Shown here: one piece after another, positions 14 to 14,180 of the stretch
How positions within the stretch are numbered: the first letter of the stretch is position 1
How the letters are laid out: every line of letters starts with the position of its first letter
Assembly (NCBI GenBank): GCA_017883165.1
Contig: JADGOC010000031.1
Span: forward strand, 1-32,023
From: Acidobacteriota bacterium
Lineage (GTDB): Bacteria; Acidobacteriota; Vicinamibacteria; Vicinamibacterales; CAVVIG01
DNA length: 32,023 bases
Reading direction: 5' to 3'
Program-made: the position numbers and the translations under genes
Notes under the pieces: generated by a model
Told to the model about the DNA's origin: nothing
Databases searched by the model: none
The model's input: the letters and a program-made list of their open reading frames with translations, nothing else

Positions 14-86
14 GCCCAACACGCGGTTGCAGGCGACCGTCCTTCGCGCTCCGCGCTCGGCCGGCGCCTGAACCGCCACGTTAGCC
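14..86 (+). other. attC-like recombination site 1
   Basis: Putative integron attC site ending a cassette whose gene lies left of the window. The R'' box is GCCCAAC (14-20) and the R' box is GTTAGCC (80-86). The inner arms GCGGTTGCAGGCG and CGCCTGAACCGC pair along their length except for one unpaired base, the extrahelical-base signature of attC hairpins. R'' and R' are only partly complementary. The orientation (R'' left, R' right) puts the array's integrase, if there is one, to the left of the window. Confidence 0.75.
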
Positions 87-112
87 CGCTCACGTCGAAC
101 GGAGGCGCACAC

Positions 113-727
113 ATGAAGCAAGCACTCGGCGTAGCGAGCGTGTTAGCCCTGATTGCGGCGCTTGCGTGGTCGAACCACTCGGTAAAGGCGCAGGATGCGT
201 CTCTCAAGCCCGTCGACGATCCGGAGGCCTACGCCGTCTACGCGAGTCTGCTTCCGAACGAATGGATTGTCCGCTCGGCGCATGCGAAGACTCTGGTGTT
301 CCAAGAGGAAACGGCCACGAACTGGGGGTGCATGCCATCTGGCAAGCCCCTCGAAACGGACTGGCGCGTAGTCGTCGATAGCTTCAAGGCGGAGAACGCC
401 GGCGTCAGGACCGTGCGAGCGGGATTCCCTCTTGAACCGGCTTACGTCGTCGTTCCTTCAGCCGAGATTAAGGCGAGCTTCCACGAAGTGCCAAACGATC
501 CGAGGTCCGGCTGGAGCGGCTTCTACAAGCGATACCCAGATTCTGGTGGCTACATGTTCGTTTCGGCCGTTGGCTTCGATCCTTCAAAGAAACGGGCGAT
601 GGTCTACATGGCACATTCTTGCGGTTTGCTCTGCGGCGGCGGAATGCACCATCTCCTAGAAAAGACCGACGGTGCATGGCGCGAGGCGAAGGTACCGGGC
701 GTGTCGAATTGCGTGTGGAACTCCTGA
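113..727 (+). CDS. Secreted protein of unknown function (cassette gene)
   Basis: The 204-aa product is not assigned to a family. It starts at an ATG with a GGAGG-type ribosome-binding site about ten bases upstream. The N-terminus has one Lys followed by a hydrophobic stretch (residues 3-20) and a likely signal-peptidase site after SVKAQ, so the mature protein should be periplasmic or secreted. The body is rich in aromatic residues and has Cys at about residues 73, 171, 175 and 201, including the segment CGLLCGGG, which could form disulfides after export. The gene lies exactly between attC-like sites 14-86 and 730-826, the layout of a single-gene integron cassette. No catalytic motif is visible and the function is unknown. 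Confidence 0.85.
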   Translation: MKQALGVASVLALIAALAWSNHSVKAQDASLKPVDDPEAYAVYASLLPNEWIVRSAHAKTLVFQEETATNWGCMPSGKPLETDWRVVVDSFKAENAGVRTVRAGFPLEPAYVVVPSAEIKASFHEVPNDPRSGWSGFYKRYPDSGGYMFVSAVGFDPSKKRAMVYMAHSCGLLCGGGMHHLLEKTDGAWREAKVPGVSNCVWNS

Positions 728-729
728 CA

Positions 730-826
730 TCGTAACGTCGCGGGCTGACCATCGAATGGAGTCGGCGCGCCGGTCGTCTCGTGTCACCATGTCGCCACAG
801 CGCGCGGCTCATTCGCGGCGTTAGGC
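730..826 (+). other. attC-like recombination site 2 (less regular)
   Basis: Candidate attC directly after the stop of the first cassette gene. The R' box is GTTAGGC (820-826) and the R'' box is TCGTAAC (730-736). The adjoining bases GTCGCG (737-742) pair with CGCGGC just before R'. The central region is longer and less symmetrical than in the other sites, so this call rests mainly on the R' box, the position right behind a stop codon, and the regular spacing of the array. Confidence 0.5.
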
Positions 827-881
827 TGCCGGAGCAACGCCATCGTTTCTCCGGGCTGACGGCTACGAAGAGGTGGACTGC

Positions 882-1661
882 ATGCGCGAATTATGGGTTG
901 AAAGCCAGGGCGCGCGGTTGTTCGCCGTTGAGGATGGCAGTGGTCCGGTGATCGTCATGCTACATGGCGGGATGGGGAACCATCAGGCGGCGCTGCCTCT
1001 GATCGCACCCTTGGCCACGCGGTATCGCATCATTGCGCCGGACCTGCGCGGCAGCGGAAAGTCCTGGTGCGGCGCTCCGCTGACATTCGATCAGCTTGCG
1101 GACGACGTCGAACTGCTCCTTGACCACATCGGCGTGGATCGGGCTGTTGTCGGTGGCGTATCGGGCGGCTCCGGAGTCGCTCTGCGCTTTGCGCTTCGAC
1201 GCCCCACCCGAACGCTCGGGCTTGTCGTGGCGAAGCCGGTATATGCGGGCGAAGCGCGGGGCTATACCGAACAACAAAGGGCGACATTCGCGATGATGGA
1301 CGCTGTTGCAAGCCGGGCGCTCGAAGAAGGCGTGCAGGTTCTGCGCCCGCTTTACGCGAATCTGCCGGCGGGCATGCGGGAGAGGGCGTTGGCAATGATG
1401 GAGGGTTTCGACGCGGCAAGCGTCGTGGCGACGAGTCACTTCATCGCATCGGGCTCCCAGCCGTTCATTGCGGCTGCAGACTTGGCGTCTCTGGAGTGTG
1501 CAACGCTCCTGGTGCGTGGTGACGATCCCATGCATCCGTCGGAGGTGTCGGATCTTTATGCGACCGGTATTCCAGATTGTACGGTTGTGCCCGCGTCGAC
1601 GCCGGTTCTCGCGCCGATCATCGGTGCGTTTGTCGATCGATGCCTACGCCCCGCAGCCTAA
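882..1661 (+). CDS. Alpha/beta hydrolase fold protein
   Basis: The 259-aa product has the alpha/beta-hydrolase fold: an oxyanion-hole HGGMG near residue 27, the strand-turn APDLRGSGKS, and a nucleophile elbow GVSGG near residue 90. Asp in VRGDDPMHP, near residue 212, could be the acid. I see no His in the last 40 residues where the catalytic His normally sits, so the triad may be incomplete or rearranged. I chose the ATG at 882, which has GAAGAGG nine bases upstream, over a GTG nine bases earlier. The stop TAA lies inside the R'' box of the following attC, a typical cassette arrangement. Substrate unknown. Confidence 0.88.
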   Translation: MRELWVESQGARLFAVEDGSGPVIVMLHGGMGNHQAALPLIAPLATRYRIIAPDLRGSGKSWCGAPLTFDQLADDVELLLDHIGVDRAVVGGVSGGSGVALRFALRRPTRTLGLVVAKPVYAGEARGYTEQQRATFAMMDAVASRALEEGVQVLRPLYANLPAGMRERALAMMEGFDAASVVATSHFIASGSQPFIAAADLASLECATLLVRGDDPMHPSEVSDLYATGIPDCTVVPASTPVLAPIIGAFVDRCLRPAA

Positions 1662-1729
1662 CCAGCGCTTGCAGCCGTCGGCGGCCGGCGCGATGATGAG
1701 CCGCCGCGGCTAAAACGCGATCGTTAGGC
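1656..1729 (+). other. attC-like recombination site 3
   Basis: R'' GCCTAAC (1656-1662) and R' GTTAGGC (1723-1729) are perfectly complementary. The inner arms GCGCTTGCAGCCG and CGGCTAAAACGC pair with a small mismatch and bulge, and the centre GGCGG/CCGCC extends the stem. The hydrolase stop codon is embedded in R''. The arm sequence is shared with the sites at 3152 and 5840, showing one attC subfamily. Confidence 0.85.
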
Positions 1730-1748
1730 GGACAACGGAGTCAGTTCC

Positions 1749-2696
1749 ATGCGAACTTTGGTAGCCGTCACGTTGGTCTCGCTTCTAGTCGCCAGCGATC
1801 GGGCCGTGCGGTTCCCGCAGAATCCGATTCTGACGTCGGCATCGAGTCCGACGATTGGCGACAGCATCAACGGTCCCTCCCTGATCCGGGTGCCGGCGTG
1901 GGTTGATCGACCGCTGGGCCGCTACTACCTGTACTTCTCTCATCACGCCGGGAAGTTCATTCGCCTCGCGTACGCCGACCAACTGTCCGGCCCGTGGACG
2001 GCTCACGAGCCGGGCACGCTCCGTCTCGAGGAGGCGCCGCGCTGTTTCGATCACGTCGCGTCGCCAGACATGCATGTCGACGACGCCAGACGCGAGATCC
2101 TCATGTACTTCCACTGCCCGTCAGGCGGCAGCGTCGACAGCAACGGCCGCGTCGACATCAACGAACAAAAGACGTTTCTGGCGACCTCAAGCGATGGCCT
2201 TCGCTTTCGCGTTACCACGCAGTCCCTCGGCCCCGCGTATTTCCGCGTGTTCCGCTGGGGCCAGTACTACTACGCTATCGTACGTGCCGGCAGCGTCCTG
2301 CGTTCGCGTGACATGCGATCGCCCTTCGAGCCAGGCCCGACCCTGATCGGCGCGGAGTCTGGTCGGTTGCTGCGGCATGCTGCGGTCGATCTGCGAGGCG
2401 ACCTTCTCCGGGTGTACTACTCACGCATCGGGGATCGGCCCGAACGCATTCTGCTTTCGGAGACGCGTTTGACGACGGACTGGTTGAAGTGGCGGGCATC
2501 GGCGCCGATCGAGGTGCTTCGTCCTGAGAAAGGGTACGAGGGCGCTGACAGGCCGCTCGAGGTCTCTCTGCCCGACGAGGCTCCGGGCCGGGTGCAGCAG
2601 TTGCGCGATCCTGGCATCTTCAAGGAAGGCGGCAAGACGTACCTGCTCTACTCGATCGCCGGCGAAAGTGGTCTCGCCGTAGGGGAGCTGCGATAG
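1749..2696 (+). CDS. Exported five-bladed beta-propeller, GH43-like protein
   Basis: The 315-aa product begins with a short hydrophobic leader (MRTLVAVTLVSLLVAS), then NPIL and a GPSLIRVP stretch typical of the first blade of GH43/GH32-like propellers. Repeated aromatic strand motifs follow (RYYLYFSHH, EILMYFHCP, QYYYAIVRA, LLRVYYSRI, KTYLLYSIAG). Candidate acidic residues are in SPDMH and RDPGIF. It could be a glycoside hydrolase or a catalytically inactive carbohydrate-binding propeller; I cannot assign a substrate. An ATG with CGGAG upstream marks the start, directly behind attC site 3. No attC is recognised after it, so it may share a cassette with the next small gene. Confidence 0.85.
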   Translation: MRTLVAVTLVSLLVASDRAVRFPQNPILTSASSPTIGDSINGPSLIRVPAWVDRPLGRYYLYFSHHAGKFIRLAYADQLSGPWTAHEPGTLRLEEAPRCFDHVASPDMHVDDARREILMYFHCPSGGSVDSNGRVDINEQKTFLATSSDGLRFRVTTQSLGPAYFRVFRWGQYYYAIVRAGSVLRSRDMRSPFEPGPTLIGAESGRLLRHAAVDLRGDLLRVYYSRIGDRPERILLSETRLTTDWLKWRASAPIEVLRPEKGYEGADRPLEVSLPDEAPGRVQQLRDPGIFKEGGKTYLLYSIAGESGLAVGELR

Positions 2697-2709
2697 CAAA
2701 CGGTGTGGA

Positions 2710-2765
2710 GTGCGGTTCGAAGGCCGCACCCATCCAGGTGCGCCTCCCCATCCTCAACAGGGGAG
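2710..2765. terminator. Two adjacent GC-rich hairpins, possible terminator
   Basis: GTGCGG/CCGCAC (2710-2715 with 2724-2729) and CTCCCC/GGGGAG (2744-2749 with 2760-2765) form two six-base-pair stems with short loops between two + strand genes. Neither is followed by a T run, so intrinsic termination is uncertain. They do not resemble attC arms. Confidence 0.3.
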
Positions 2766-2808
2766 TCGAGACGAGGTCTGGCGCGTTATCCTGAGCGAGG
2801 AACTATCA

Positions 2809-3093
2809 ATGCCGATCCTGCACATTCAACACTCGGTCCAGAACTTTGAAGGCTGGAAGCGCGCCTTTGAGAGCGACCCCATGGACCGGAAGGGCTCCGG
2901 CGTCCGTCGGTACCACGTCTATCGTTCCGTCGCGGACCAGAATTTCGTGATGATCGACCTGGAGTTCGACACCATGGCTGAGGCCGAGAGGCTGCTGGAA
3001 AGACTGCGCCAGTTGTGGGCGGGGCCTGGCGGCACCGTCATGCGGAACCCCGAGGCCTGGATCGTTGAAACAGTCGAATCGAGAACCGTCTGA
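2809..3093 (+). CDS. Small ferredoxin-fold (dimeric alpha/beta barrel) protein
   Basis: The 94-aa product has no signal peptide. Its pattern of a short strand (ILHIQHSV), a helix (FEGWKRAFES), a strand (GVRRYHVYRSV), a strand (NFVMIDLEFD) and a helix (MAEAERLLERLRQLW) fits the dimeric alpha/beta-barrel group that includes antibiotic-biosynthesis-monooxygenase-like and stress-response proteins. This is a fold-level assignment; cofactor and substrate are unknown. The ATG at 2809 follows GAGCGAGGAAC. An upstream in-frame extension exists but runs through the hairpin region and is unlikely to be coding. The gene ends 58 bases before the attC at 3152. Confidence 0.8.
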   Translation: MPILHIQHSVQNFEGWKRAFESDPMDRKGSGVRRYHVYRSVADQNFVMIDLEFDTMAEAERLLERLRQLWAGPGGTVMRNPEAWIVETVESRTV

Positions 3094-3151
3094 CTAGGCT
3101 GTTCCTGCGCTACATTTCGTAGCCTGTTGAAACAACCGGATGCAGGAAGCT

Positions 3152-3235
3152 GGCTAACCAGCGTTTGGAGCCGACGGCGCGCGCCTATCTCTTTAGTGGG
3201 CGGGTCGCGCCGCGGCTGAAACGCAATCGTTAGCC
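3152..3235 (+). other. attC-like recombination site 4
   Basis: This is the clearest site. R'' GGCTAAC (3152-3158) and R' GTTAGCC (3229-3235) are perfectly complementary. The inner arms GCGTTTGGAGCCG and CGGCTGAAACGC pair fully except for one extra base, the expected extrahelical base. A central stem (GGCGCG/CGCGCC) closes a variable loop. Total length is 84 bp. Confidence 0.9.
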
Positions 3236-3276
3236 GGACCTACTCTGGATGTGGGCGAGACCATGGGAGCTCTGCG

Positions 3277-3940
3277 GTGAATCGTGTGTTCGTGCTAGGT
3301 CGCTCGGTACATCCCGTCGCATTCGGCGCCCTCGTCATACTGCTGGTCGCCACACCAAGTCGGACACAGTCCGCAACAACATGGTGGCCGTCAAGAGGCG
3401 CCGTCATCCTTGAGGGTGGCGGTATCGGATCAACAACGTTTGGCGCGGTCTCGGCCCGCCTCATCGCACTCGCGGGTGGCCCCAGTGCGCGCATCGTGAT
3501 CATTCCGACTGCAAACGAAGCCGTCGCGCCTCGACTGACGGGAACCGGGCCAGCTGTCGACCCAGACCAACTCAAGAAGTTGCTTGAGGCCAAGGGAGCG
3601 GAACGCGTCACTATTCTGCACACCCGAGATCGACAAGTGGCGAATTCGGAAGAATTCGCGAAAGTGCTTCGCACTGCGAGCGGCGTGTGGATTCCTGGCG
3701 GGGCAGCGCGCATCCTGGAGAACACGTATCGCGGGACGCTGGTCGCCCAGGAGCTGAATGGTTGCACATCCGGGCCCGGTTGGCATCGTCATTGACGAAG
3801 ACACCGCCCTTGTACTCAACGGCAGCGCCGCCGAGGCCATCGGAGTAGGAACCATCGCTCTTGTGGATCCGGCGAAGGACAAGGCCAGGCCGTATCTAGT
3901 CCTCAAGGGTGGTGACAAGCGAGACCTCGCGCTCCCGTGA
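3277..3940 (+). pseudogene. Cyanophycinase-like (peptidase S51) gene, internally deleted and frameshifted
   Basis: The first frame (from a GTG at 3277) gives a hydrophobic leader, then GAVILEGGG, ARIVIIPTAN, RVTILHTRDR and GVWIPGGAARILE, the order seen in cyanophycinases. At about 3758 the match jumps to another frame reading VGIVIDEDTALVLNGSAAE, the family's C-terminal portion (GIGIDE). The segment that normally lies between, with the nucleophile motif GGTSAGA and the DQHF region, is absent, so both a deletion of roughly 70-90 codons and a frame change have occurred. The product would lack the catalytic Ser. Sequencing or assembly error cannot be excluded. It sits directly behind attC site 4. 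Confidence 0.8.
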
Positions 3941-4043
3941 AAAACCTAGGAGGCATCATCCTGTCGACGTCCCTCGATGGTTACTTTGGAGCAATACGAA
4001 GCTGGTGAAGGGCGACATGATACGTGAGGAGAGGGAGGTTCAG

Positions 4044-4514
4044 GTGCGGAACAGACCAGCCGTTGTGGGGTCAGCGCTGAGAGTGCTTCTCGTGTGCGTG
4101 CCACTTGTCCTTTCGACCGCGTGCGCTACCGTCTTTCATGGAAGGACGCAGGAGACCACGATCACGTCGGAGCCCGTTGGCGCTCGGATCTTCATCGGCA
4201 AGGAGTTAGTAGGCGTCACGCCGGCCCGGATCATCCTGAAGAGACGAGAGTCCCACGTGGTCCTTCATTTCGAGAAGGAGGGCTACCAAACCGAGGAGTT
4301 GGCGCTGAAGAGAAGCTTCAGTGGTTGGATCGCGGCCGACATTGGTTTGGGCGCTGCGCAGTTTGCAAACCAGGGGCTTGCGTCCCAATCGCAAATGGCC
4401 TCCGCCGCGGCGGGAATCACGACGGTCACCCTCGGCGTTGACCTCATCACGGGGTCGGCGTACCAGCTGCCAACACACGTGCAGGTAACCCTCAAGCCTT
4501 TGCAGTTGCGCTGA
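4044..4514 (+). CDS. PEGA-domain lipoprotein
   Basis: From the GTG at 4044 the product is 156 aa. This start has GAGGGAGG five bases upstream and is preferred to an in-frame ATG at 4017. A hydrophobic signal leads to the lipobox LSTAC with Cys27 as the lipidation site, predicting an outer-membrane or periplasm-anchored lipoprotein. A PEGA domain follows (TSEPVGARIFIGKELVGVTPARI then LKRRESHVVLHFEKEGY, given in parts), a beta-rich module common in surface lipoproteins. A glycine/alanine-rich hydrophobic segment near the end (IAADIGLGAAQFA and TLGVDLITGSAY) resembles the C-terminus of PEGA lipoproteins. It probably has an envelope role, and is followed four bases later by the HEAT-repeat gene. 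Confidence 0.82.
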   Translation: MRNRPAVVGSALRVLLVCVPLVLSTACATVFHGRTQETTITSEPVGARIFIGKELVGVTPARIILKRRESHVVLHFEKEGYQTEELALKRSFSGWIAADIGLGAAQFANQGLASQSQMASAAAGITTVTLGVDLITGSAYQLPTHVQVTLKPLQLR

Positions 4515-4518
4515 CGAC

Positions 4519-5319
4519 GTGTGGCCCTTTTCCGAACTACCGCAGAATGTCGCGACATTGCGCGTCGGTTGCGGCCGGCAGGCGCTGGAAGCCAAGAACC
4601 CCGATACGCGGAAGCAAGCCGTGGTGGCGTTGAGCCTGGTGGCGGCGCAGTTCTTGTCGCCCCTCAAAGCGATGTTGCAGGACAAGGACGTCGAGGTCCG
4701 CCTGGCCACCGTGGTGAGCCTGACGGAGGTGAGAAGCCAGCAGTCCATCGCGGCGCTGCGCGCCGCGCTGGATGACGAGGTGCCGGAAGTGAGCTTTGCC
4801 GCCGCGAAGGCGCTGTGGGGCTTGCACGACACCGCGGGCAAGCAGGCACTGCTCGCCATACTCGCAGGCGATAGTCGGAGCTCGTCCAAATTTTTCTCGA
4901 AGCAGAAACGGGACGCGCTGCGGATGATCCATTCGCCGCGGGTCATGCTCCTGTTTGCCGTGCACAAAGGCATCGGATTTGTCCCGGTGCCTTACATGGG
5001 ATTGGGCGTCGCCTCGATGCAGACACTCCTGACCGATACCGGAGTCTCGGGGCGGGCGGCGGCGGCATTGATGCTGGCTACCGAAAAGGACCAAGCCACG
5101 TTGGAGGCCTTACGGGACGCGTTGAGCGACACAGACTGGTCGGTGCGAGCCGCAGCCGTGCATGCGCTCGCGCTGCGCAGGGATCCTCGACTGAGGACCG
5201 ACCTGGCACCGCTGCTCGATGACCAGAACGAAGCCGTGCGGCTCCGCGCCGCGGCTGCGTACCTGAGACTGGCAGGTCAAGCGCGGACACCCGACAAGGC
5301 TGGCGCACGTCACGAATGA
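4519..5319 (+). CDS. HEAT-repeat protein
   Basis: The 266-aa product is made of paired helices of the HEAT/PBS-lyase type: NPDTRKQAVVALSLV, DKDVEVRLATVVSLTEV, DEVPEVSFAAAKALWGL, then a less regular middle with a hydrophobic KGIGFVPVPYMGLGVA patch, and DTDWSVRAAAVHALAL and DQNEAVRLRAAAAYLRL at the C-terminus. Such repeats form a solenoid for protein-protein contacts; the partner is unknown. The GTG start lies four bases after the lipoprotein stop, suggesting co-transcription, but there is no good ribosome-binding site and the first 20 residues look atypical, so the N-terminus may be truncated. The stop overlaps that of the convergent cupin gene by ten bases. Confidence 0.82.
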   Translation: MWPFSELPQNVATLRVGCGRQALEAKNPDTRKQAVVALSLVAAQFLSPLKAMLQDKDVEVRLATVVSLTEVRSQQSIAALRAALDDEVPEVSFAAAKALWGLHDTAGKQALLAILAGDSRSSSKFFSKQKRDALRMIHSPRVMLLFAVHKGIGFVPVPYMGLGVASMQTLLTDTGVSGRAAAALMLATEKDQATLEALRDALSDTDWSVRAAAVHALALRRDPRLRTDLAPLLDDQNEAVRLRAAAAYLRLAGQARTPDKAGARHE

Positions 5320-5780
5320 CGATGGGCATCCGGCATGCCGAGACGGCGGACCGTGTCACCCTCGAAGTCGAATTCGATCAGCACCGCCGGCTCGCTGCCC
5401 ACGACCCAGCCGTCGTGGCCCGGCGCGATCGCCACAATCTGCGGAGCCTTGTGTTCCACAACACAGCCGTCGGCGTATTCGATGTGGATCTCGCCGTGCG
5501 CCAGGAAACCGACGTGGGCGTGCATGCACAGGTCAGTCCCGACGATCGGTTTCATGTCGACCGACCAGCGGAATCCGCTTGGATAGACCATGCGCTTGAC
5601 GCGCGCGGCGCCGGCACGTCCGACATCGAGCCGGACATGGCCGATCGTGCGGCGCTCGGCCCCCTTCACCGGCGCAAGGAGCGGATCCGGCGCCTTCGGT
5701 CGGCTCCGAGAAGGCTTGCGTCGTTTCGCGATCCTGGCGGAGTGCCTGACGCTCTTTCGGACGGGCTTCTTTTTTGCCAT
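5310..5780 (-). CDS. Cupin-domain protein with basic N-terminus (reverse-oriented in the array)
   Basis: The 156-aa product begins at an ATG preceded by AGAGAGGCCT. Residues 1-30 are Lys/Arg-rich (MAKKKPVRKSVRHS, AKRRKPSRSRP), possibly nucleic-acid or polyphosphate binding. The rest is a small cupin barrel: GTDLCMHAHVGFLAHGEIHIEYADG holds two His spaced as in metal-binding cupin motif 1, and VVEHKAPQIVAIAPGHDGWV resembles motif 2 (each given in short parts). It is the only minus-strand gene in the first 17 kb and sits antiparallel in front of the attC at 5840, so it is a reverse-oriented cassette gene. Its basic tail is unlike typical cupins. Function unknown. Confidence 0.82.
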   Translation of the reverse strand: MAKKKPVRKSVRHSARIAKRRKPSRSRPKAPDPLLAPVKGAERRTIGHVRLDVGRAGAARVKRMVYPSGFRWSVDMKPIVGTDLCMHAHVGFLAHGEIHIEYADGCVVEHKAPQIVAIAPGHDGWVVGSEPAVLIEFDFEGDTVRRLGMPDAHRHS

Positions 5781-5839
5781 AGGCCTCTCTCTGGTCAGCA
5801 GAACGGCGATGCTAGCACGGCTCGGAGCGCGAACGAGCC

Positions 5840-5912
5840 GTCTCACACGGTTTTGCAGCCGACGGCGGGAGGAGCGACAATGAGCCGCCGCGGCTGAAAC
5901 CTGGCGTTAGCC
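5840..5912 (+). other. attC-like recombination site 5 (R'' degenerate)
   Basis: R' GTTAGCC (5906-5912) and the inner arms GGTTTTGCAGCCG and CGGCTGAAACC are intact and nearly identical to those of sites 3 and 4. The R'' position holds GTCTCAC (5840-5846), which has lost the AAC end, so the outer stem is weakened. This is the last convincing attC before the backbone. Confidence 0.75.
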
Positions 5913-5937: not shown

Positions 5938-6393
5938 GTGGTTCCCCGCTCGCTTCGTGATCCGGCCGGGCGACGGTCTGTTCTCGACCGACTTGGCGCG
6001 CTCACTCCGGAGCATCCGCGTCGATGGGGTCGGATGGAGCCCGTTCAGCTCTTGCCTCACTTGGCAAGTGGCCTGCGTATGGCGTTGGGCGAGCGGAAAC
6101 TCGAAGGCTCGCCTCCCGGTCGAATCCGTGGCGCGGTCTTGCGCTACCTGGCCATCTACCGTCTGCCGTGGCCGGAAGGAAGGATTCAATCGCCGCCTGG
6201 CGCGTTCAACACGCCAAGTCTCGGTTGGGAACGGGATCGGCAGGTCGTGGTCGAACTGATCGAACGCTTCGCGACGACGCCGCCTGACAAGCTGGGGGTC
6301 GTCCATCCGAGTTTCGGCCGGATGAGGCCCCGTGACTGGGATGTGTTGCAGTACCGGCATCTCGACCATCACCTTCGGCAGTTCGGGGTTTGA
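5938..6393 (+). CDS. DUF1569 / DinB-like helical bundle protein
   Basis: The 151-aa product starts at a GTG with GGAGGAG eight bases upstream, 25 bases after the attC R' box, as for the first gene of a cassette. The motif MEPVQLLPHLASGLRMALGE (given whole, 20 residues) supplies a His on the first helix. HPSFGRMRPRDWDVLQYRH and LDHHLRQFGV form the C-terminal helix with several His. These match the DUF1569 family, a metal-binding four-helix bundle related to DinB. Its physiological reaction is not established. No attC is visible behind it. Confidence 0.82.
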   Translation: MVPRSLRDPAGRRSVLDRLGALTPEHPRRWGRMEPVQLLPHLASGLRMALGERKLEGSPPGRIRGAVLRYLAIYRLPWPEGRIQSPPGAFNTPSLGWERDRQVVVELIERFATTPPDKLGVVHPSFGRMRPRDWDVLQYRHLDHHLRQFGV

Positions 6394-6491
6394 ATGCGAA
6401 AAGCTCAGATCATGACGGCGGCACTCGCGGATCTGGTGAAGAGCTATCACGTCTCGATGGTGATGGGTGGGTTGATCAAGAAGAGAGTGTG

Positions 6492-6830
6492 ATGATGAAT
6501 CCGATCACGTACTTCGAGGTTGCAGGGCCTGACGCCAAGAGCTTGGCCGACTTCTACGCGGCAGTATTCGGATGGGAACCTACGCCTGGCCCTTTTCCGA
6601 ACTACTATTCGCTTCAAGCGGCCGGAGGCGCTGGGCTCGCAGGCGGGTTTCGTCAGGACGATCGGCCCGAGCACGTGTTCTACGTGAAGGTTCCCGACCT
6701 CGCGGCGGCGCTCGAAAGCGTCGTCCGGGCCGGGGGGCGGGTCCTGATTCCGCCAACCGATGTGCCCGGCGTGGTGCACTTCGCCCTGTTCGAAGATCCA
6801 GCCGGTAATCGCACCGGCATCATGCAATGA
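6492..6830 (+). CDS. VOC-family (glyoxalase/bleomycin-resistance fold) protein
   Basis: The 112-aa product shows the opening of VOC proteins (ITYFEVAGPDAKSLADFYAA, then VFGWEP) and the second beta-alpha-beta unit (HVFYVKVPDLAAALESVVRA, then GGRVL). It ends HFALFEDPAGNRTGIMQ. This single-domain form is typical of uncharacterised VOC proteins, which as a family bind a metal between paired domains and act in detoxification or dioxygenation. I use the ATG at 6492, the first of two adjacent Met codons behind AAGAAGAGAG; an upstream extension of 34 codons has no family likeness. Substrate unknown. Confidence 0.88.
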   Translation: MMNPITYFEVAGPDAKSLADFYAAVFGWEPTPGPFPNYYSLQAAGGAGLAGGFRQDDRPEHVFYVKVPDLAAALESVVRAGGRVLIPPTDVPGVVHFALFEDPAGNRTGIMQ

Positions 6831-6871
6831 CGTAGGTGCGGTCGCGCGGCGCCGCAGGTGAGGGGCACACC

Positions 6872-7590
6872 ATGCTTGGACGGTTTGGCCACATCTCGTT
6901 GGCCACAGTGGCACTCGTCGCGATCGTCCCTGGCGTGGCAAGACCGGCCCCACAGACACCCACCGAGATTGTCGTGGTCGGCACCGTTCACACGGCCACC
7001 GAGAAGTACTCCGTGCAGGACCTGGTCCGCATTCTTCAGAGGGTCAGGCCCGACGTGATTCTCTTCGAGTACCCGGCCGACATGATGACGCCGGGGTTCG
7101 AATCGATGGTCGCAACGTCTTCTACGAGCGCACGCATTACTTCGAGCGCCAGCGGCAGTGCAATCAGGAACTGAACGCCCGGATCGACACCAAGGGACTG
7201 AGTGCTGAAGCGCAGAAGGTCGTCGACGCGCTCGATGCGGCGAATGCCAGGCGCGACGCCATTGGGAAGTCGGATCCCCTGGCGATCAACTCGTTTCAGG
7301 CCGACACCGCGAGCAACGACAGGCAGTGGCTGATGAACCAGGGAATTCCAGAGATCGTGCGTCTGACACCGGGTTTGAGAGGCTGCGAAGCATTTTGGAA
7401 CGCGTCGAGAGCCTACTGGGTCAGGCGGAACGACGAGATGCTGCGCAACATCAGGCGATTCGCGACAGAATTCGCGGGAAAGCGGCTGGTTGTGCTCTGC
7501 GGGTACGAGCACCGGTACTACTTGCGGAGTCACTTATACGATTGGGATGAACAGCCGGGCTATGTCCTCAAGGAATACTGGGAGTACTAA
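6872..7590 (+). pseudogene. Frameshifted secreted TraB/Tiki-like protein
   Basis: The reading starts at an ATG behind GTGAGGGG with a signal-like leader (hydrophobic to ARPAPQ), then EIVVVGTVHTATEKYSVQDL and VRPDVILFEYP, a strand-GTVH arrangement like TraB/Tiki/ChaN-type proteins. Between about 7085 and 7110 the coding signal moves to another frame, continuing NVFYERTHYFERQRQCNQEL and on to LVVLCGYEHRYYLRSHLY and the stop at 7588-7590. The C-terminal GYEH matches a second conserved His of this superfamily. The frame change suggests an indel, possibly with loss of some codons. It may be a true pseudogene or an assembly error. The family name is tentative. Confidence 0.65.
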
Positions 7591-7594
7591 CGGT

Positions 7595-8665
7595 ATGGCC
7601 AGTACACATCGCGGTGCGCCCGAGACCAGCGGCGCCGTTGGAAACGTCAACCGCCCGAGTCCTCTCGTTGAGATGGCGATGGGCTACGCCCGGAGCCGGG
7701 CGCTTTGCGCGGCTGCCCGTTTGGGTATTGCCGACGTCTTGGCTGACGGCCAAAGCACTGTCGAGCAACTGGCGACGGCATGCCACGCCGACCCCGCGGC
7801 ACTTCACCGCCTTCTGCGCGCTCTCGCGAGCTTCGGTATCGTCTCGGAATCTGGCCCTGGTACGTTCGCCCTGACAGCCTTGGGTGCACCTCTCCGCAAG
7901 ACGGCTCCTGATTCGGCCTGGGCTGCCGTCGTGTTTTGGGCCGACTTGCTCGCCGACCATTGGTCCTACCTAACCGATTGCGTTCGCACTGGGAGCAGCG
8001 CCGCGGAGATCATGAAACGAGAGGGCATCGTCTCGCGCTGGTCAAAGGATCCCGATGCGCCCGCGATCTTCCGAGCCGTCATGGGGACAGGCCCGGCGGA
8101 AGACTATCTGCCGCTCGCCCGCGCCTGGAACTTTTCCGAACGGCACGTCGTAGCCGACCTCGGCGGCGGCGGTGGCACGCTGATTCTGGCCCTTCTCGAG
8201 ACGTACCCGAATATCCACGGGATGCTCGTCGATCGTCAGGAATCGATCGATCGGGCGGCCTCCCGCTTCGCTGCCCAGGATCTCACGTCACGATGTGCCC
8301 TTGTTGCTGCCGATCTGTGCCAGGCCGTACCGGCTGGTGCCGACACTTATGTACTGAAACACGTCCTCCACGGCTACGGTGACGAAGTCGCGATGGGCAT
8401 CCTTTGCAACTGCCGGTCCGTCATGTCCGCGGAAGGCCGTCTTCTTGTCATTGAATTTGTTCTGCCCGATATATTCGATTCCGTGGACCAGGAGCTGGAG
8501 CGGCGTGCGATGAGCGACCTCAACATGTTGGCCGTCACTGGCGGCAAAGAACGTGGCGCGGCCGAGTGGAAGGAGCTTCTGTTCCGGTCAGGCTTTGAGA
8601 TGCGCCGCATCATAGCGGTGTCCGGTGAATCGGCTTCCATCATCGAAGCCGCGCCCTTGGCGTGA
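7595..8665 (+). CDS. SAM-dependent O-methyltransferase (small-molecule type)
   Basis: The 356-aa product has a winged-helix dimerisation domain in the first 110 residues (YARSRALCAAARLGIADVLA; DPAALHRLLRALASFGIV) and a Rossmann methyltransferase domain. The SAM-binding glycine loop is ADLGGGGG, with Asp at residue 188. LVDRQESID binds the ribose region. VLKHVLHGYGDE corresponds to the catalytic His segment of plant/actinobacterial O-methyltransferases. It likely methylates a hydroxyl on a phenolic or polyketide-type metabolite; the substrate is unknown. I use the ATG at 7595 rather than an upstream in-frame start that would overlap the preceding gene; the two genes are four bases apart. Confidence 0.9.
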   Translation: MASTHRGAPETSGAVGNVNRPSPLVEMAMGYARSRALCAAARLGIADVLADGQSTVEQLATACHADPAALHRLLRALASFGIVSESGPGTFALTALGAPLRKTAPDSAWAAVVFWADLLADHWSYLTDCVRTGSSAAEIMKREGIVSRWSKDPDAPAIFRAVMGTGPAEDYLPLARAWNFSERHVVADLGGGGGTLILALLETYPNIHGMLVDRQESIDRAASRFAAQDLTSRCALVAADLCQAVPAGADTYVLKHVLHGYGDEVAMGILCNCRSVMSAEGRLLVIEFVLPDIFDSVDQELERRAMSDLNMLAVTGGKERGAAEWKELLFRSGFEMRRIIAVSGESASIIEAAPLA

Positions 8666-8706
8666 GCCCATCGTCGCCGGTGACCAAAACAGGAGACCCC
8701 CCACGC

Positions 8707-9484
8707 ATGTCCATCACCACGCGGCATCGACTCGTCGCGTTTCTCGTCCTGACGTTCGCCCTCAGCTCGATCTTCTACGTACGGATCGCATCCGCGGGCA
8801 AGCTGAAGATGCTGCCCGTGCTCGGGCTCATGTGGTGTCCGGGCGCGGCGGCACTGATCGTGCGGCTCGTGTCTCAACGGAATCTCCGAGGGACCGGCTG
8901 GAAGTGGGGCGCGACGCGGTGGCAGGCCTTGAGCTACCTGTTGCCGCCCTTATTGGGCGCAGTCGTCTATGGTCTCGTCTGGCTGACCGGGATCGGCAGC
9001 TTCACGGCTGGTGGGCTGGCGCTCGGCAAAGACGTTGGAGCCCACATACCGCTGCCCGTGATCATCGTCTTGTTTGCGACCGCTGGCGTTCTTCAGGGAG
9101 TGGTCTTCACGCTCGGCGAAGAGATCGGCTGGCGGGGATTCCTGGTTCCCGAGTTGGCCCAGGTTTCGAGCTTTACGAAGACGGCGTTGATCAGCGGGGC
9201 GGCCTGGTCCGTCTACCATTACCCCCTCATCCTGTTCGCGGACTACAACAGCCGGGCGCCGAAGTGGTTCGCGCTGCTCGTCTTCACCTGGATGATCATG
9301 GCCTCCTCGTTCGTGTACGCCTGGCTGCGCCTCAAATCGGGAAGCATCTGGACGGCTGTCATCCTGCATGGCGCTCACGAGGTACGTCACCACCGAGTTC
9401 GGCGTCGGCCTCGCGCTCGCGTATACGATTCTGGCACTTTATTTCTGGCGCCGGCGCGGCGATGTTCTTGCGGATGCAGCGTGA
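8707..9484 (+). pseudogene. CPBP-family intramembrane metalloprotease, frameshifted
   Basis: From ATG 8707 the product has several membrane segments and the CPBP (Abi) motifs: EEIGWR at residues 138-143 (EExxxR), WSVYHYP with His171, and ILHGAH near 220. At about 9382 the family-like reading moves to another frame, giving YVTTEFGVGLALAYTILAL and then YFWRRRGDVLADAA with a stop at 9482-9484. The stretch usually found between the third motif and the last helix is missing, so there is a deletion plus a frame change. In the original frame the reading runs on into the next gene and creates a false fusion. The conserved catalytic part is intact, so a truncated product might retain activity. Confidence 0.8.
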
Positions 9485-9492
9485 GAGGTGGA

Positions 9493-10512
9493 ATGCTCAT
9501 GCGTCACTTGCTGACCGCACTCGTGGCTGTGGGCATGCTCGGGAGCGCCGTGCTTGCTCAAGTCAGCGACGCTCCCCGGAACGACCTGCCGCAGCCCTAC
9601 CGGACGACGCGCGACTGGGGGCAGCTGCCTCCGGGAGTGAAATGGGCCGCCGTCACCGCCGTCGAGCCCGCGCCCGACGGCACGATCTACGTCATCCACC
9701 GCTGCGTCGCCAATTCCTGCGCCGGTCGCCCGGAGCCGCCGATCCTGCAGTTCGACTCCAGCGGCAAGCTCCTCAAGACTTTCGGCGAAGGGCTCTTCGT
9801 CTTCCCGCACGGCGCGACCGTGGATCGTCACGGCAATCTCTGGGTGACCGACGCGGGCGGTCAGGACGGCAAGGGCCACCAGGTTTTCAAGTTCAGCCCG
9901 GAGGGCAAGGTGCTCATGACGCTCGGTCGAGCGGGCGTCAGCGGTTCGACTCCCGATCTGCTGGATCAACCGACCGACGTCGTCGTCGCGCCGAGCGGCG
10001 ATATTTTTGTCACTGACAGCCACCGCAACGGCAAGAACAACCGCGTCGTCCGGTTCACCGCGGACGGCCGGTACGTCAAGGAGTGGGGGACGAAAGGTGC
10101 CGGCCGTGGAGAAATGAGCGAGCCGCACACGATCGCCATGGACTCGCGCGGACGTCTCTTCGTCGGGGATCGCGAGAACAACCGCATCGAAATCTTCGAC
10201 CAGGACGGCCACTACCTCGACGAGTGGCGTCAGTTCGGCCGCCCGAGCGGCATCTTCATCACCAGGGACGACACCATTTACGTCACCGACTCCGAGTCCG
10301 GCCGCGATACGGGCGCACACGAGCTCGCCGGCATCAGGAAAGGCATCCGCATCGGCAGCGCCAGGGACGGGACAGTCACCGCGTTCATCGAAGAGCTGGA
10401 ATCGACCTCGCCGGATCACTCTGGCGCTGAAGGCGTCGGCGTGGACGCGCAAGGGAACGTGTACGGCGCTGTCGTCCGCCGCCAGATGCTCGAACGCCAC
10501 GTGAAGAAGTAG
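9493..10512 (+). CDS. Secreted NHL-repeat six-bladed beta-propeller protein
   Basis: The 339-aa product has a signal peptide (MLMRHLLTALVAVGMLGSAV then LAQ) followed by NHL repeats. Each has a bulky strand and a DxxGN/DxxGR turn: VDRHGNLWVTDAG, VAPSGDIFVTDSH, MDSRGRLFVGDRENNRIEIF, ITRDDTIYVTDSES and VDAQGNVYGAVV. The order resembles peptidyl-alpha-hydroxyglycine lyase-like propellers of soil bacteria, but I cannot assign catalysis. The ATG at 9493 is nine bases past the CPBP stop, suggesting co-transcription. The open reading continues upstream only because the CPBP gene is frameshifted. Confidence 0.9.
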   Translation: MLMRHLLTALVAVGMLGSAVLAQVSDAPRNDLPQPYRTTRDWGQLPPGVKWAAVTAVEPAPDGTIYVIHRCVANSCAGRPEPPILQFDSSGKLLKTFGEGLFVFPHGATVDRHGNLWVTDAGGQDGKGHQVFKFSPEGKVLMTLGRAGVSGSTPDLLDQPTDVVVAPSGDIFVTDSHRNGKNNRVVRFTADGRYVKEWGTKGAGRGEMSEPHTIAMDSRGRLFVGDRENNRIEIFDQDGHYLDEWRQFGRPSGIFITRDDTIYVTDSESGRDTGAHELAGIRKGIRIGSARDGTVTAFIEELESTSPDHSGAEGVGVDAQGNVYGAVVRRQMLERHVKK

Positions 10513-10520
10513 CGTGAGGC

Positions 10521-10904
10521 ATGGGATATCGGTTGCTCGCCGATCTTGTTGTCATCCTCCACTTAGCCTTTCTCTTGTTCACGGTGCTGGGCGGCCTAGT
10601 GGTTCTTCGTTGGCGCTGGTTTCCGTGGATTCACCTGCCGGCCGCCATCTGGGGCGGGTTCGTCGAGGTTACCGGTCGTGTCTGTCCGTTGACTGTTCTC
10701 GAGAACTGGCTCCGCCGGGCAGGAGGAGGCTCTGGGTATGAGCGCGACTTCATCGACCGCTACGTGGTACCTATCGTCTATCCGCCCGGTCTCACGAGAG
10801 AGATTCAACTGGCACTAGGAGTGCTCCTGGTCGTGGTCAACGGCGCGATCTACATGATTGCCTGGCGTTGCCGGACGAAAGTCGAGACAACCAGCGGCCG
10901 CTAA
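10521..10904 (+). CDS. DUF2784 membrane protein
   Basis: The 127-aa product has the hallmarks of DUF2784: an N-terminal helix YRLLADLVVILHLAFLLFTV, a second segment around RWRWFPWIHLPAAIWGGFVE, then the conserved CPLTVLENWLRRAGG and GYERDFIDRYVVPIVYPPGL. A final membrane helix precedes a short hydrophilic tail. Function of the family is unknown; it is an inner-membrane protein. It follows the NHL gene by eight bases. The stop sits in CGCTAACGG, which looks like an attC R'' box, but no matching R' box was found downstream. Confidence 0.92.
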   Translation: MGYRLLADLVVILHLAFLLFTVLGGLVVLRWRWFPWIHLPAAIWGGFVEVTGRVCPLTVLENWLRRAGGGSGYERDFIDRYVVPIVYPPGLTREIQLALGVLLVVVNGAIYMIAWRCRTKVETTSGR

Positions 10905-11028
10905 CGGCTTTCCGGCAGATTGAACTGCAGGCCCGCAGGCCCCTGACGCGGGCAAGGCGATTCCGGCCGGGTACGTTCCTTGTACCTGATGAAGGCGTTC
11001 GCGGTCTCCCTGAGCTGGGCAGCGTGGA

Positions 11029-11553
11029 ATGACGATGCGGATTCTCCGCCAGCTCTTTGCGATCGCGGTGCTGCCGTTCACTGACACGATGCTCATCCCG
11101 ATCTGGGTGGTGCGCCGCAATGGGATCTCGCCGGGAATCGGCTCGGGCCTCGCCCACGTGCTGCTGCAGGTGGCCGGGCTGTGCCTCCTGACCGCCGGGG
11201 CGCTCTTGTTCGCCGCCAGCCTCCGTCGCTTCGCCACCGAGGGCCGCGGCACGCTCGCCCCCTGGGATCCTCCTCGACGCCTCGTCGTCCGCGGACCGTA
11301 TCGATACGTGCGCAATCCGATGATCTCGGGCATCGTCTTCGTGCTGTTTGCCGAGGCGCTGCTGCTTCTGTCGCGGCCTCACCTGATGTGGGCGCTCATA
11401 TTTCTGGGAATCAACTGCGTGTACATCCCGCTGCTCGAAGAGCCGGACCTGGCGAAGCGGTTTGGGGAAGCCTATCGGGAGTATTGTCGACACGTGCCGC
11501 GGCTCGTGCCACGCTTGCGGGGGTGGGAGCCGGTTCAGGACCACAGATTGTGA
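11029..11553 (+). CDS. ICMT/PEMT-like membrane methyltransferase family protein
   Basis: The 174-aa product has about four membrane segments and the family's C-terminal signature: RRLVVRGPYRYVRNPMISG, then a helix, then EEPDLAKRFGEAYREYCRHV and a terminal PRLVPR. This is the isoprenylcysteine-carboxyl / phospholipid methyltransferase-like family, which uses SAM at the membrane. Bacterial members are mostly uncharacterised, so the acceptor is unknown. The start is ATG 11029 (MTMR). The 124-bp gap before it holds a small inverted repeat GGTAC/GTACC and no clear attC. Confidence 0.9.
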   Translation: MTMRILRQLFAIAVLPFTDTMLIPIWVVRRNGISPGIGSGLAHVLLQVAGLCLLTAGALLFAASLRRFATEGRGTLAPWDPPRRLVVRGPYRYVRNPMISGIVFVLFAEALLLLSRPHLMWALIFLGINCVYIPLLEEPDLAKRFGEAYREYCRHVPRLVPRLRGWEPVQDHRL

Positions 11554-11572
11554 GCGCGGCAGAGAGTTGTCC

Positions 11573-12040
11573 ATGATCAAGACTCCGGAATCCGTCGCAA
11601 CGTTTCTTCGAGGAAGGCGCATAGCCGTGGCCGGCGTCTCCCGGCACCCGAGCCAGGCGGCCAACTTCGTGTTCCGCAAGCTGAGAAGCTCCGGGTACGA
11701 GGTGTTTCCGATCAACCCAAAGGCCTCGGAGGTGGAGGGCGTCAAGTGTTACCCCGACCTCGCCGCCGTGCCGGTTCAACTTGACGGTGTCGTGATCGCG
11801 ACCTCTCCAGATGTGTCGATCCAGGTTGTGCGGCAGTGCAGTGACCATGGCGTACGCCAAGTGTGGTTCCATCGGTCTTTTGGGAACGGAAGCGTTTCAG
11901 ACGAGGCCGTTCGCGAGTGTGACGCGCAAGGCATCGACTGCATCGTTGGGGGCTGCCCGCTCATGTTCTGCGATCCGGTCGATGTCGGGCACAAGTGCAT
12001 GAGGTGGTGGCTTCAGCGGCAGGGCCGCGTTCCAACCTAA
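11573..12040 (+). CDS. CoA-binding domain protein (YccU-like)
   Basis: The 155-aa product is a single CoA_binding_2 domain: RRIAVAGVSRHPSQAANFVF is the first strand and glycine loop, GYEVFPINPKASEVEG is the second strand with the conserved NP, then CYPDLAAVP, LDGVVIATSPD and QVWFHRSFGN. The usual VWMQ.G segment reads VWFHRSFG here. The C-terminus GIDCIVGGCPLMFCDP carries a Cys cluster seen in many members. Such stand-alone domains are thought to bind CoA or a related nucleotide; the role is unknown. ATG 11573 lies 19 bases after the previous stop. Confidence 0.92.
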   Translation: MIKTPESVATFLRGRRIAVAGVSRHPSQAANFVFRKLRSSGYEVFPINPKASEVEGVKCYPDLAAVPVQLDGVVIATSPDVSIQVVRQCSDHGVRQVWFHRSFGNGSVSDEAVRECDAQGIDCIVGGCPLMFCDPVDVGHKCMRWWLQRQGRVPT

Positions 12041-12057
12041 GGGGGCGTGGCGTAATC

Positions 12058-12591
12058 ATGCCTGAGAGCCATCTCATCTTGTTCTATCGGCATCAAGGGA
12101 CGGACCATCGTGGGCGCTCGTTGGTGGATATTCGAAGGCTCAGCCTCGAAGAGCTCGAAGAGACGCACGACTTCATCCAGTGGCTGTTTCCACTACCAGA
12201 GCCGAGCTCGGCCAGCGATGACGCACCTCTGCTGTCTCAAGCGGACATCAGCCTGTTCAAGTCCGATCAGTCTCTTCGAGCCGAGCTTCTTCTGTCTTTT
12301 GGAGTCATGCTGCGCTTCTTCGGCTTAGCCTGCCGAGATGAAGCCGGGGCCGTAACACCCGAGATCGTCCGCGCCGCGGATTTCACCGAACGACGCCGGA
12401 TATGGCTGTACTCCCACAGCCACAATTTTCTCCGCATCACACGAATTCTGCGCGCCCTGTACCTTCTTGGCTGCTCCGATCATGCGGTGGCCTTCAGGCG
12501 ATGTCTTGACAGTATCTATGGTGATTTTCGTGATGTCGTGGGGCCTCGAACGATCGCGTTTTGGCGAAGTGCAGCGCCGGGCGGCATCTGA
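12058..12591 (+). CDS. Opioid growth factor receptor (OGFr) conserved-domain protein
   Basis: The 177-aa product carries the signature of the OGFr N-terminal domain: SLEELEETHDFIQWLFPLPE, then DAPLLSQADISLFKSDQSLR, a long helix LLSFGVMLRFFGL, and the C-terminal SHNFLRITRILRALYLLG. In animals this domain belongs to a nuclear-envelope receptor; bacterial members are short, cytosolic and of unknown function. No signal peptide or membrane helix is seen. The start ATG is 17 bases after the CoA-binding gene. A single-domain protein of this type in a string of unrelated small genes fits a cassette-like origin. Confidence 0.88.
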   Translation: MPESHLILFYRHQGTDHRGRSLVDIRRLSLEELEETHDFIQWLFPLPEPSSASDDAPLLSQADISLFKSDQSLRAELLLSFGVMLRFFGLACRDEAGAVTPEIVRAADFTERRRIWLYSHSHNFLRITRILRALYLLGCSDHAVAFRRCLDSIYGDFRDVVGPRTIAFWRSAAPGGI

Positions 12592-12602
12592 GGCATTTCG
12601 AC

Positions 12603-13208
12603 GTGTCCACACAGATCGGCCTCGCATTGCGGCATGCTCGCCCGGGCATCGTGATCATCGCGATGACGTACATCCTGTCGGTCACGAGCGGTGCCGTGAT
12701 GGCCCACGCGGGGAACAGCTTCGCCCTCCGCTATCGCGACTCGCTGGTCGCGCGGGCACACCGCGCCGACCCCGCCTCCCGCGCGGATGATCAGGGTGCG
12801 CACGCGACGGCGGCTCTCATCGATTTTTCCAGAAACCTCGGGCTTGCGGCGATTCCAGAGACGATTGGGGGGATGACTCTGGTATTGCCCGTGGGCCTGG
12901 CTGCGTATCGTGGATGGGTGGGCGGCATCGTATCGGTCAATCACGCTCACAGGAGCCGCCTGGCGCATGTGCGGACGGCGACGTACTACCTCGTCACACT
13001 CTTCCTGCAGCTCGCCGCATTCATCCTGGCGGGCGGGGGCGGACTCCATCTCGGGTGGGCCTTCCTGAAACACCGCGGTCCGTTCGTTGGGCCGTGGTGG
13101 TTTCGCCTACCGCAGCCAGCGCTCGTCGATGTCGCTTGGCTGTACGCTGTGGTTGTGCCCTTGTTTGCGGTCGGTTCGTTCTGGGAGTTTCTGGGACCCA
13201 CTGCCTAA
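12603..13208 (+). CDS. Membrane protein, possibly SpoIIM-like
   Basis: The 201-aa product starts at a GTG with GAGG about nine bases upstream. An N-terminal helix (PGIVIIAMTYILSVTSGAVM) precedes a hydrophilic loop ending in SRNLGLAAIPETIGG. At least three further membrane segments follow: GMTLVLPVGLAAYRGWVGGI, TATYYLVTLFLQLAAFILAG and VAWLYAVVVPLFAVGSFWEF. Topology and the Asn-containing start of helix two recall stage II sporulation protein M-type proteins, but this is a weak likeness. The stop TAA lies inside GCCTAAC, identical to an attC R'' box. Confidence 0.75.
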   Translation: MSTQIGLALRHARPGIVIIAMTYILSVTSGAVMAHAGNSFALRYRDSLVARAHRADPASRADDQGAHATAALIDFSRNLGLAAIPETIGGMTLVLPVGLAAYRGWVGGIVSVNHAHRSRLAHVRTATYYLVTLFLQLAAFILAGGGGLHLGWAFLKHRGPFVGPWWFRLPQPALVDVAWLYAVVVPLFAVGSFWEFLGPTA

Positions 13209-13274
13209 CCGTCACGCGGACACTGCGCGCGAGTGGGGCAGTGGAGAGAGGCGTTTGAGACAGCAAGGTAGCTT

Positions 13275-13631
13275 GTGAATCAGTTGAACTGGTCCTGGAT
13301 CGCACTGGCGCTGACCGTGCCGCCCGTGGTGGGCGGTCTGGTCGCATACCCGTTGTGGCGGACGGGTCAGCCGATCCTCGGCAACCTCACCGGCACGACC
13401 GTCATCTTCGGCGCCGCCATGGCGCTGATGATGCGGGAGCATGTCGAGCTGGTCCGCGTCGCGCAAAAGTGCCTCGACGAGGGCTTCACGTGCTGGCCCG
13501 ACCCGAGCGCGTTCACGCGCTACGCGATCTACGCATTCATCGCACTGGTCGAGGTGATGGCGCTGTTCTCTCTGAGCCTCAAGGTGGAAACAAGGCTCCG
13601 GCGCCGCGGGTACGATCCGGAATGGCGGTGA
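13275..13631 (+). CDS. Small inner-membrane protein of unknown function
   Basis: The 118-aa product starts at a GTG. It has three predicted membrane helices: WIALALTVPPVVGGLVAYPL, NLTGTTVIFGAAMALMM and YAIYAFIALVEVMALFSLSL. Between the last two, a loop with REHVELVRVAQKCLDEGFTC contains two Cys. The C-terminus is short and basic (ETRLRRRGYDPEWR). I do not recognise a family with a known role. It ends 30 bases before the YdeI-like gene. Confidence 0.78.
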   Translation: MNQLNWSWIALALTVPPVVGGLVAYPLWRTGQPILGNLTGTTVIFGAAMALMMREHVELVRVAQKCLDEGFTCWPDPSAFTRYAIYAFIALVEVMALFSLSLKVETRLRRRGYDPEWR

Positions 13632-13660
13632 TCGAACGTCGCGCCTGTCGCCTGAGCATC

Positions 13661-14161
13661 ATGCCCGGAAAGCCGACCTTCTTCAGATCCGCCTCTGATC
13701 TGGGAAAGTGGTTTGCGGCGCATCATGCCACTGCGAAGGAACTCTGGGTCGGCTACTACAAGAAAGGCTCGGGCACGGCGAGTGTGACGTGGCCGGAGTC
13801 GGTCGACGAGGCACTGTCGGTCGGCTGGATCGACGGCGTGCGGAAACGCGTGGATGACATGCGGCCCGCGGGCCTGCTGGCCTTTGAGGCGCGCACAGAG
13901 AATCGGTCGGGCATCTATTCATACGAGCAGCGGAGCGACACGCTCCCTGAACCGTACGCGCGGACACTCAAGAAGAACACAATCGCGTGGGCATTCTTTC
14001 ACGCGCAGACCGCGTCGTACCGGAAGAAATGCTATTGGTGGGTCGTCAGCGCCAAGCAGGAGGCGACACGGCTGAAACGCCTCGAGGCGCTCGTCGAGGC
14101 CAGGGCGTACGGAGAAACGATCCCGGAAGCGACTCGCGGGAAGAAGTTGAAGTGGTTTTGA
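13661..14161 (+). CDS. YdeI/OmpD-associated family protein with internal deletion
   Basis: The 166-aa product has the family's opening (PTFFRSASDLGKWFAAHH; ELWVGYYKKGSG; WPESVDEALSVGWIDGVRK) and its ending (MRPAGLLAFEARTENRSGIY; AWAFFHAQTASYRKKCYWWV; SAKQEATRLKRLEALVE). In the relatives I know, about 30 residues containing IRFTPR and WSAVN lie between GVRK and MRPAG; here RVDD joins directly to MRPAG. The frame is kept, so this is an in-frame loss of a conserved block and the protein may be non-functional. The ATG at 13661 starts the conserved region; an in-frame ATG at 13622 is an alternative. Confidence 0.85.
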   Translation: MPGKPTFFRSASDLGKWFAAHHATAKELWVGYYKKGSGTASVTWPESVDEALSVGWIDGVRKRVDDMRPAGLLAFEARTENRSGIYSYEQRSDTLPEPYARTLKKNTIAWAFFHAQTASYRKKCYWWVVSAKQEATRLKRLEALVEARAYGETIPEATRGKKLKWF

Positions 14162-14180
14162 GTCGTCGCGTAAGGTGTAG

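Follow-up and report, generated by a model that had tools for sequence, protein, structure and literature searches.

An integron gene-cassette array occupies positions 14-5912 of the window, which is the entire contig C199 (32,023 bases) from a draft assembly of 4.24 Mb in 334 contigs. Five attC sites, all in a single orientation, delimit four cassettes. The reading that we favor, with a probability of about 0.75, is that the array is a CALIN (at least two attC sites without a neighboring integrase), a remnant or a detached part of a chromosomal integron. The array is real, but as an example of a well-known kind of gene-capture system it is ordinary. Its limits, the start of the first R'' (GCCCAAC) at 14 and the end of the last R' (GTTAGCC) at 5912, are exactly those given in an earlier reading of the letters (the original prediction), and the five sites proposed there were all matched by R2, a covariance model whose training set contained no site of the window. 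The sites, with their R2 scores, are:

14-86, minus strand: attC site 1, R'' GCCCAAC at 14-20 and R' GTTAGCC at 80-86; 52.7 bits, E 9e-12 (match at 17-87); folds as a hairpin
744-826, minus strand: attC site 2, mismatched, degenerate R'', R' GTTAGGC at 820-826; 32.5 bits, E 2e-6 (match at 746-827)
1656-1729, minus strand: attC site 3, perfect R''/R' pair GCCTAAC/GTTAGGC, R' at 1723-1729; 66.5 bits, E 2e-15
3153-3235, minus strand: attC site 4, perfect R''/R' pair GGCTAAC/GTTAGCC, R' at 3229-3235; 59.9 bits, E 1e-13
5842-5912, minus strand: attC site 5, degenerate R'', R' GTTAGCC at 5906-5912; 52.9 bits, E 8e-12; the last recognizable attC

The sites have the architecture of attC, with R'' (RYYYAAC) and R' (GTTRRRY) bounding an imperfect inverted repeat. 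R' reads GTTAG(G/C)C at all five. Sites 1 and 3 have an R'' that fits the consensus, sites 3 and 4 show full complementarity between R'' and R', as had been predicted, and in sites 2 and 5 R'' is degenerate. A simple search for R''/R' pairs with up to 2 mismatches was too crude, as only site 3 stood out strongly.

An Rfam scan of the window returned nothing at the gathering thresholds, and therefore we built our own covariance models. Model R1, made from window sites 1, 3, 4 and 5, gave strong matches on integron-integrase-bearing contigs of related genomes, and 21 of these matches, all on such contigs, were used to train R2. Because the training sites of R2 were gathered with a model of the window's own sites, the two models are not fully independent, a concern that is answered in part by the class 1 integron control described below. 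When the whole window was scanned with R2 with filters off, exactly the five sites were recovered, in one orientation (E from 2e-15 to 2e-6). The best score elsewhere, excluding reverse complements of the sites, was 17.6 bits, and we counted attC-like matches under 18 bits as background. Neither model had been trained on site 2, and its E value is therefore a fair test: in spite of its degenerate R'' it is a genuine attC.

The original prediction had proposed folding of the bottom strands as a further check. Sites 1, 3, 4 and 5 all folded into long hairpins of a common layout, with two unpaired columns in the 3' half of the bottom-strand hairpin (the R''/L'' side), as in attC sites. The loop-proximal unpaired base is T in 17 of the 21 sites of the relatives. 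In the other column the pairing used leaves a C unpaired next to a G in 14 of the 21 sites, so that the identity of this base is tentative. In the R2 training alignment 96.6% of the cells are in standard pairs, compared with 70.5% after shuffling, and the covariation score is 0.551, compared with 0.136 after shuffling and 0.015-0.126 when the partners were displaced by 1 to 3 columns. Both the pairing and the covariation figures are flattered, since the alignment had been fitted to the structure.

As a control, R2 was applied to an E. coli plasmid whose class 1 integron contains the dfrA17-aadA5 cassettes. The top two matches were both known attC sites, on the expected strand. That of aadA5 (2829-2883, 26.3 bits) lies directly downstream of the gene, and that of dfrA17 (3724-3854, 14.3 bits), which with an E of 0.04 would be weak alone, is correctly placed downstream of dfrA17. 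Thus, R2 recognizes the sites of the window and textbook class 1 attC sites alike. A second class 1 control was left out and not scanned, IS26 being located within 75 bases after its cassette.

The same kind of site accompanies an integron integrase in a relative. A family member of a sister genus (G007) has a complete integron. Its integrase (L026:8780-9766) scores 437 bits, the cut-off being 265, and shares 49% identity with IntI1. Three attC sites follow, at 10816, 11575 and 12311; R1 gives the first two 77.9 and 75.5 bits. These sites are very similar to those of the window, whose attC type is thus found next to a true IntI in a sister genus.

Since the hairpins are GC-rich and so is the genome, the repeats could be imagined to be unrelated dispersed elements (REP-, MITE- or terminator-like). 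This explanation we regard as extremely improbable: the model that finds them also recognizes known class 1 attC sites, similar sites stand beside IntI in relatives, and at each of the five sites R2 scores the bottom strand well above the top strand. Dispersal without cassette-like spacing, which the original prediction had named as an outcome that would speak against it, was not what we found, as the host genome has only six good copies and five of them form the co-oriented, cassette-spaced row of the window. The sixth is a single strong attC (C284:10804-10874, 58.9 bits) that immediately follows a DinB-like gene (10288-10785), far from any array, and it represents a lone cassette.

The R'-to-R' distances in the array are 740, 903, 1506 and 2677 bases (0.7 to 2.7 kb), which is a cassette-size spacing, and the four cassettes are as follows:

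81-820, plus strand: cassette 1, ORF 113-727 for an exported protein of unknown family (no Pfam or NCBIfam match), with site 2
821-1723, plus strand: cassette 2, alpha/beta hydrolase ORF 882-1661 (Pfam PF00561, E 7e-17), with site 3
1724-3229, plus strand: cassette 3, ORFs 1749-2696 and 2809-3093, both without Pfam or NCBIfam match, with site 4
3230-5906, plus strand: cassette 4, cyanophycinase-like ORF 3277-3795, PEGA-domain ORF 4017-4514, HEAT-repeat ORF 4519-5319 and minus-strand ORF 5310-5780, with site 5

The genes between the sites are, as first described, small, unrelated and mostly co-oriented, the sole exception being the minus-strand ORF 5310-5780. The cargo had been expected to be other than resistance genes, and the Pfam and NCBIfam scans indeed named no resistance gene.

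The distribution of the cassette genes in relatives is patchy. A search of 26 family relatives at E<=1e-20 gave no homolog of the hydrolase. Among 396 genomes sampled across the phylum, homologs of protein 113-727 were found in 5 other genomes and those of protein 2809-3093 in 3, and protein 1749-2696 was more widespread (23 genomes including that of the window, i.e. 22 other Acidobacteriota). No plasmid relatives of protein 113-727 were found. In the other genomes examined, attC sites near homologs of the genes of cassettes 1 and 3 were present at one locus only, and none was seen near the examined homologs of protein 1749-2696. At that one locus (L173), which belongs to a distant Acidobacteriota genome, the homolog of gene 113-727 starts no more than about 10 bases past the end of an attC, and a second attC lies upstream. 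This locus provides independent support for the gene travelling as a cassette.

Several features are consistent with an array in decay, namely the degenerate sites 2 and 5, the broken cyanophycinase-like gene and the over-long cassette 4; the order of events is one that we infer. The cyanophycinase-like frame (3277-3940) breaks near 3795 and resumes in another frame to about 3940; the middle part of the gene is apparently missing. Cassette 4 is 2.7 kb long with four frames, and in it R2 with filters off detected no further attC above background. It may represent several cassettes fused through the loss of attC sites. Separately, a 24-base repeat (92% identical) was noticed at 4517-4540 and 6582-6605, so that a piece of a glyoxalase gene (6495-6830) occurs again immediately ahead of the HEAT-repeat frame at 4519; the copy at 4517-4540 is probably the relic of a second glyoxalase gene.

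To the right of the array, the closest relative found for the glutaminyl-tRNA synthetase (GlnRS) gene was in the metagenome-assembled genome of an uncultured member of the Acidobacteria (L062, 79% identity), and the gene order downstream of GlnRS is conserved. The host is therefore a bacterium of the Acidobacteriota, with chromosomal DNA in the right half of the contig. The L062 locus was considered as an empty site and rejected, since only the downstream genes are syntenic and the sequence upstream of GlnRS is unrelated and has no attC. The intervening region contains small, unrelated, mostly co-oriented genes without recognizable attC and without a counterpart in the L062 locus:

5938-14180, mostly co-oriented: O-methyltransferase, CAAX protease, NHL repeat protein, DUF2784, PEMT, CoA-binding, OGFr_N, SpoIIM-like and YdeI-like genes

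As a suggestion only, these genes may be old cassettes that have lost their attC sites. A weak relative of one of them, the phospholipid-methyltransferase-like gene at 11029-11553, lies between attC sites at 2099 and 3544 in another genome (G021; L040:2998-3243). A gene at 6869-7590 is split across two frames and is apparently a pseudogene.

The original prediction had described the array as having no integrase in the window and had placed any integrase to its left, the array otherwise being a CALIN. The first statement holds in that the 32 kb contig has no integrase, which in part reflects the end of the contig only 13 bases before site 1. As the contig ends at the array, the search for intI was extended to the whole genome, and none of the 334 contigs had anything over the cut-off of TIGR02249 (integron integrase). 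Partial matches to the profile were to Xer-type or other tyrosine recombinases. Among them, one is truncated at a contig end and fits Xer models best (C12), one is a frame that adjoins a TrmFO-like gene (C275), and one, a further recombinase, is below every cut-off (C172). XerC genes often adjoin TrmFO-like genes. Thus, the second statement also found support, from the fold and covariation of the sites, from the IntI-adjacent sites of the relatives and from the absence of an integron integrase over the cut-off genome-wide: with five attC sites, no integrase in the contig and none over the cut-off elsewhere in the assembly, the array conforms to the definition of a CALIN.

With the contig ending where it does and the assembly in 334 pieces, the integrase could be in unassembled sequence. 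The array would then belong to a complete sedentary chromosomal integron split by the assembly, with IntI and attI just to the left of the contig end and missing from the draft. We consider this unlikely, though deserving of weight. The contig does begin 13 bases before an attC, very similar attC sites complicate assembly and, as integrons become split at these repeats, inflate CALIN counts in draft genomes (PMC9024848), and an integron integrase over the cut-off was detected in 12 of 27 family genomes. Against this, no IntI over the cut-off was present in the contigs of a genome rated 100% complete, the left-end sequence was found on no other contig of the host (DNA comparison gave short chance matches only), and the one other good attC of the genome stands alone.

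A different origin would be the insertion of cassettes, one by one, at ordinary sites of the chromosome (attG-type) through a trans-acting integrase, in which case the array would never have had an integrase of its own. The lone attC after the DinB-type gene and the occurrence of attC sites on many contigs of family genomes, often without IntI, would be in line with such insertions. Five sites in a row, however, resemble an array that became detached more than a set of separate insertions, and no empty site could be demonstrated, since the search turned up no genome of the same genus and the assembly lacks the left flank. We hold this origin to be highly improbable; the weight given to it overlaps that given to the CALIN reading, since insertion in trans would also leave a CALIN.

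If the array is a CALIN as we propose, the window would be the right-hand end of an integron cassette array on the chromosome. Each attC would have been recombined as a single-stranded bottom-strand hairpin, and the cassettes would have been strung together through cleavage at G^TTRRRY in R' by an IntI that was once encoded here or provided in trans. Loss of the integrase would have followed, and the array would now be immobile.

CALINs are a defined and common class, with 2961 CALINs against 2760 complete integrons in one survey (PMC9024848). The array resembles those of the IntegronFinder definition (PMC9024848) in having at least two clustered attC sites without a nearby integrase and in its size (five sites against a mean near six), but here the contig end adjoins the first site, so that the absence of a neighboring integrase is provisional. 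With the sedentary chromosomal integrons of Acidobacteriota (PMC8352920; G007) it shares a common attC family, small genes bounded by attC and, as far as visible, the order of parts in G007, whereas in the genome of the window neither integrase nor attI was detected and the left flank of the array is missing from the assembly. The class 1 mobile integron (dfrA17-aadA5, L176) has attC sites recognized by the same covariance model and a like polarity of genes and sites; the array of the window differs from it in being chromosomal, in having neither resistance cassettes nor an integrase, and in its more uniform attC sites.

Five family relatives (G013, G015, G017, G019 and G022) have 17 to 46 attC matches per genome, on several contigs where these were listed, and none of the five had an integron integrase at E 1e-60. 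It is conceivable that in the family as a whole cassettes spread mainly by repeated insertion into ordinary sites, with a transient or shared integrase, so that integrase-free clusters and single cassettes would be the normal state and not a sign of decay, but this appears distinctly improbable to us.

Integrons of acidobacteria are already known, the taxon being one of eleven for which a dedicated attC covariance model was made (PMC8352920), and the value of the array lies mainly in an additional data point and in a list of cargo that includes several proteins without a family. It is a clear case of a cassette array without an integrase from an acidobacterial lineage that is uncultured. In the draft genomes of this family, attC sites occur more widely (at least one at E 0.01 in 22 of 27) than integrases can be detected (12 of 27).
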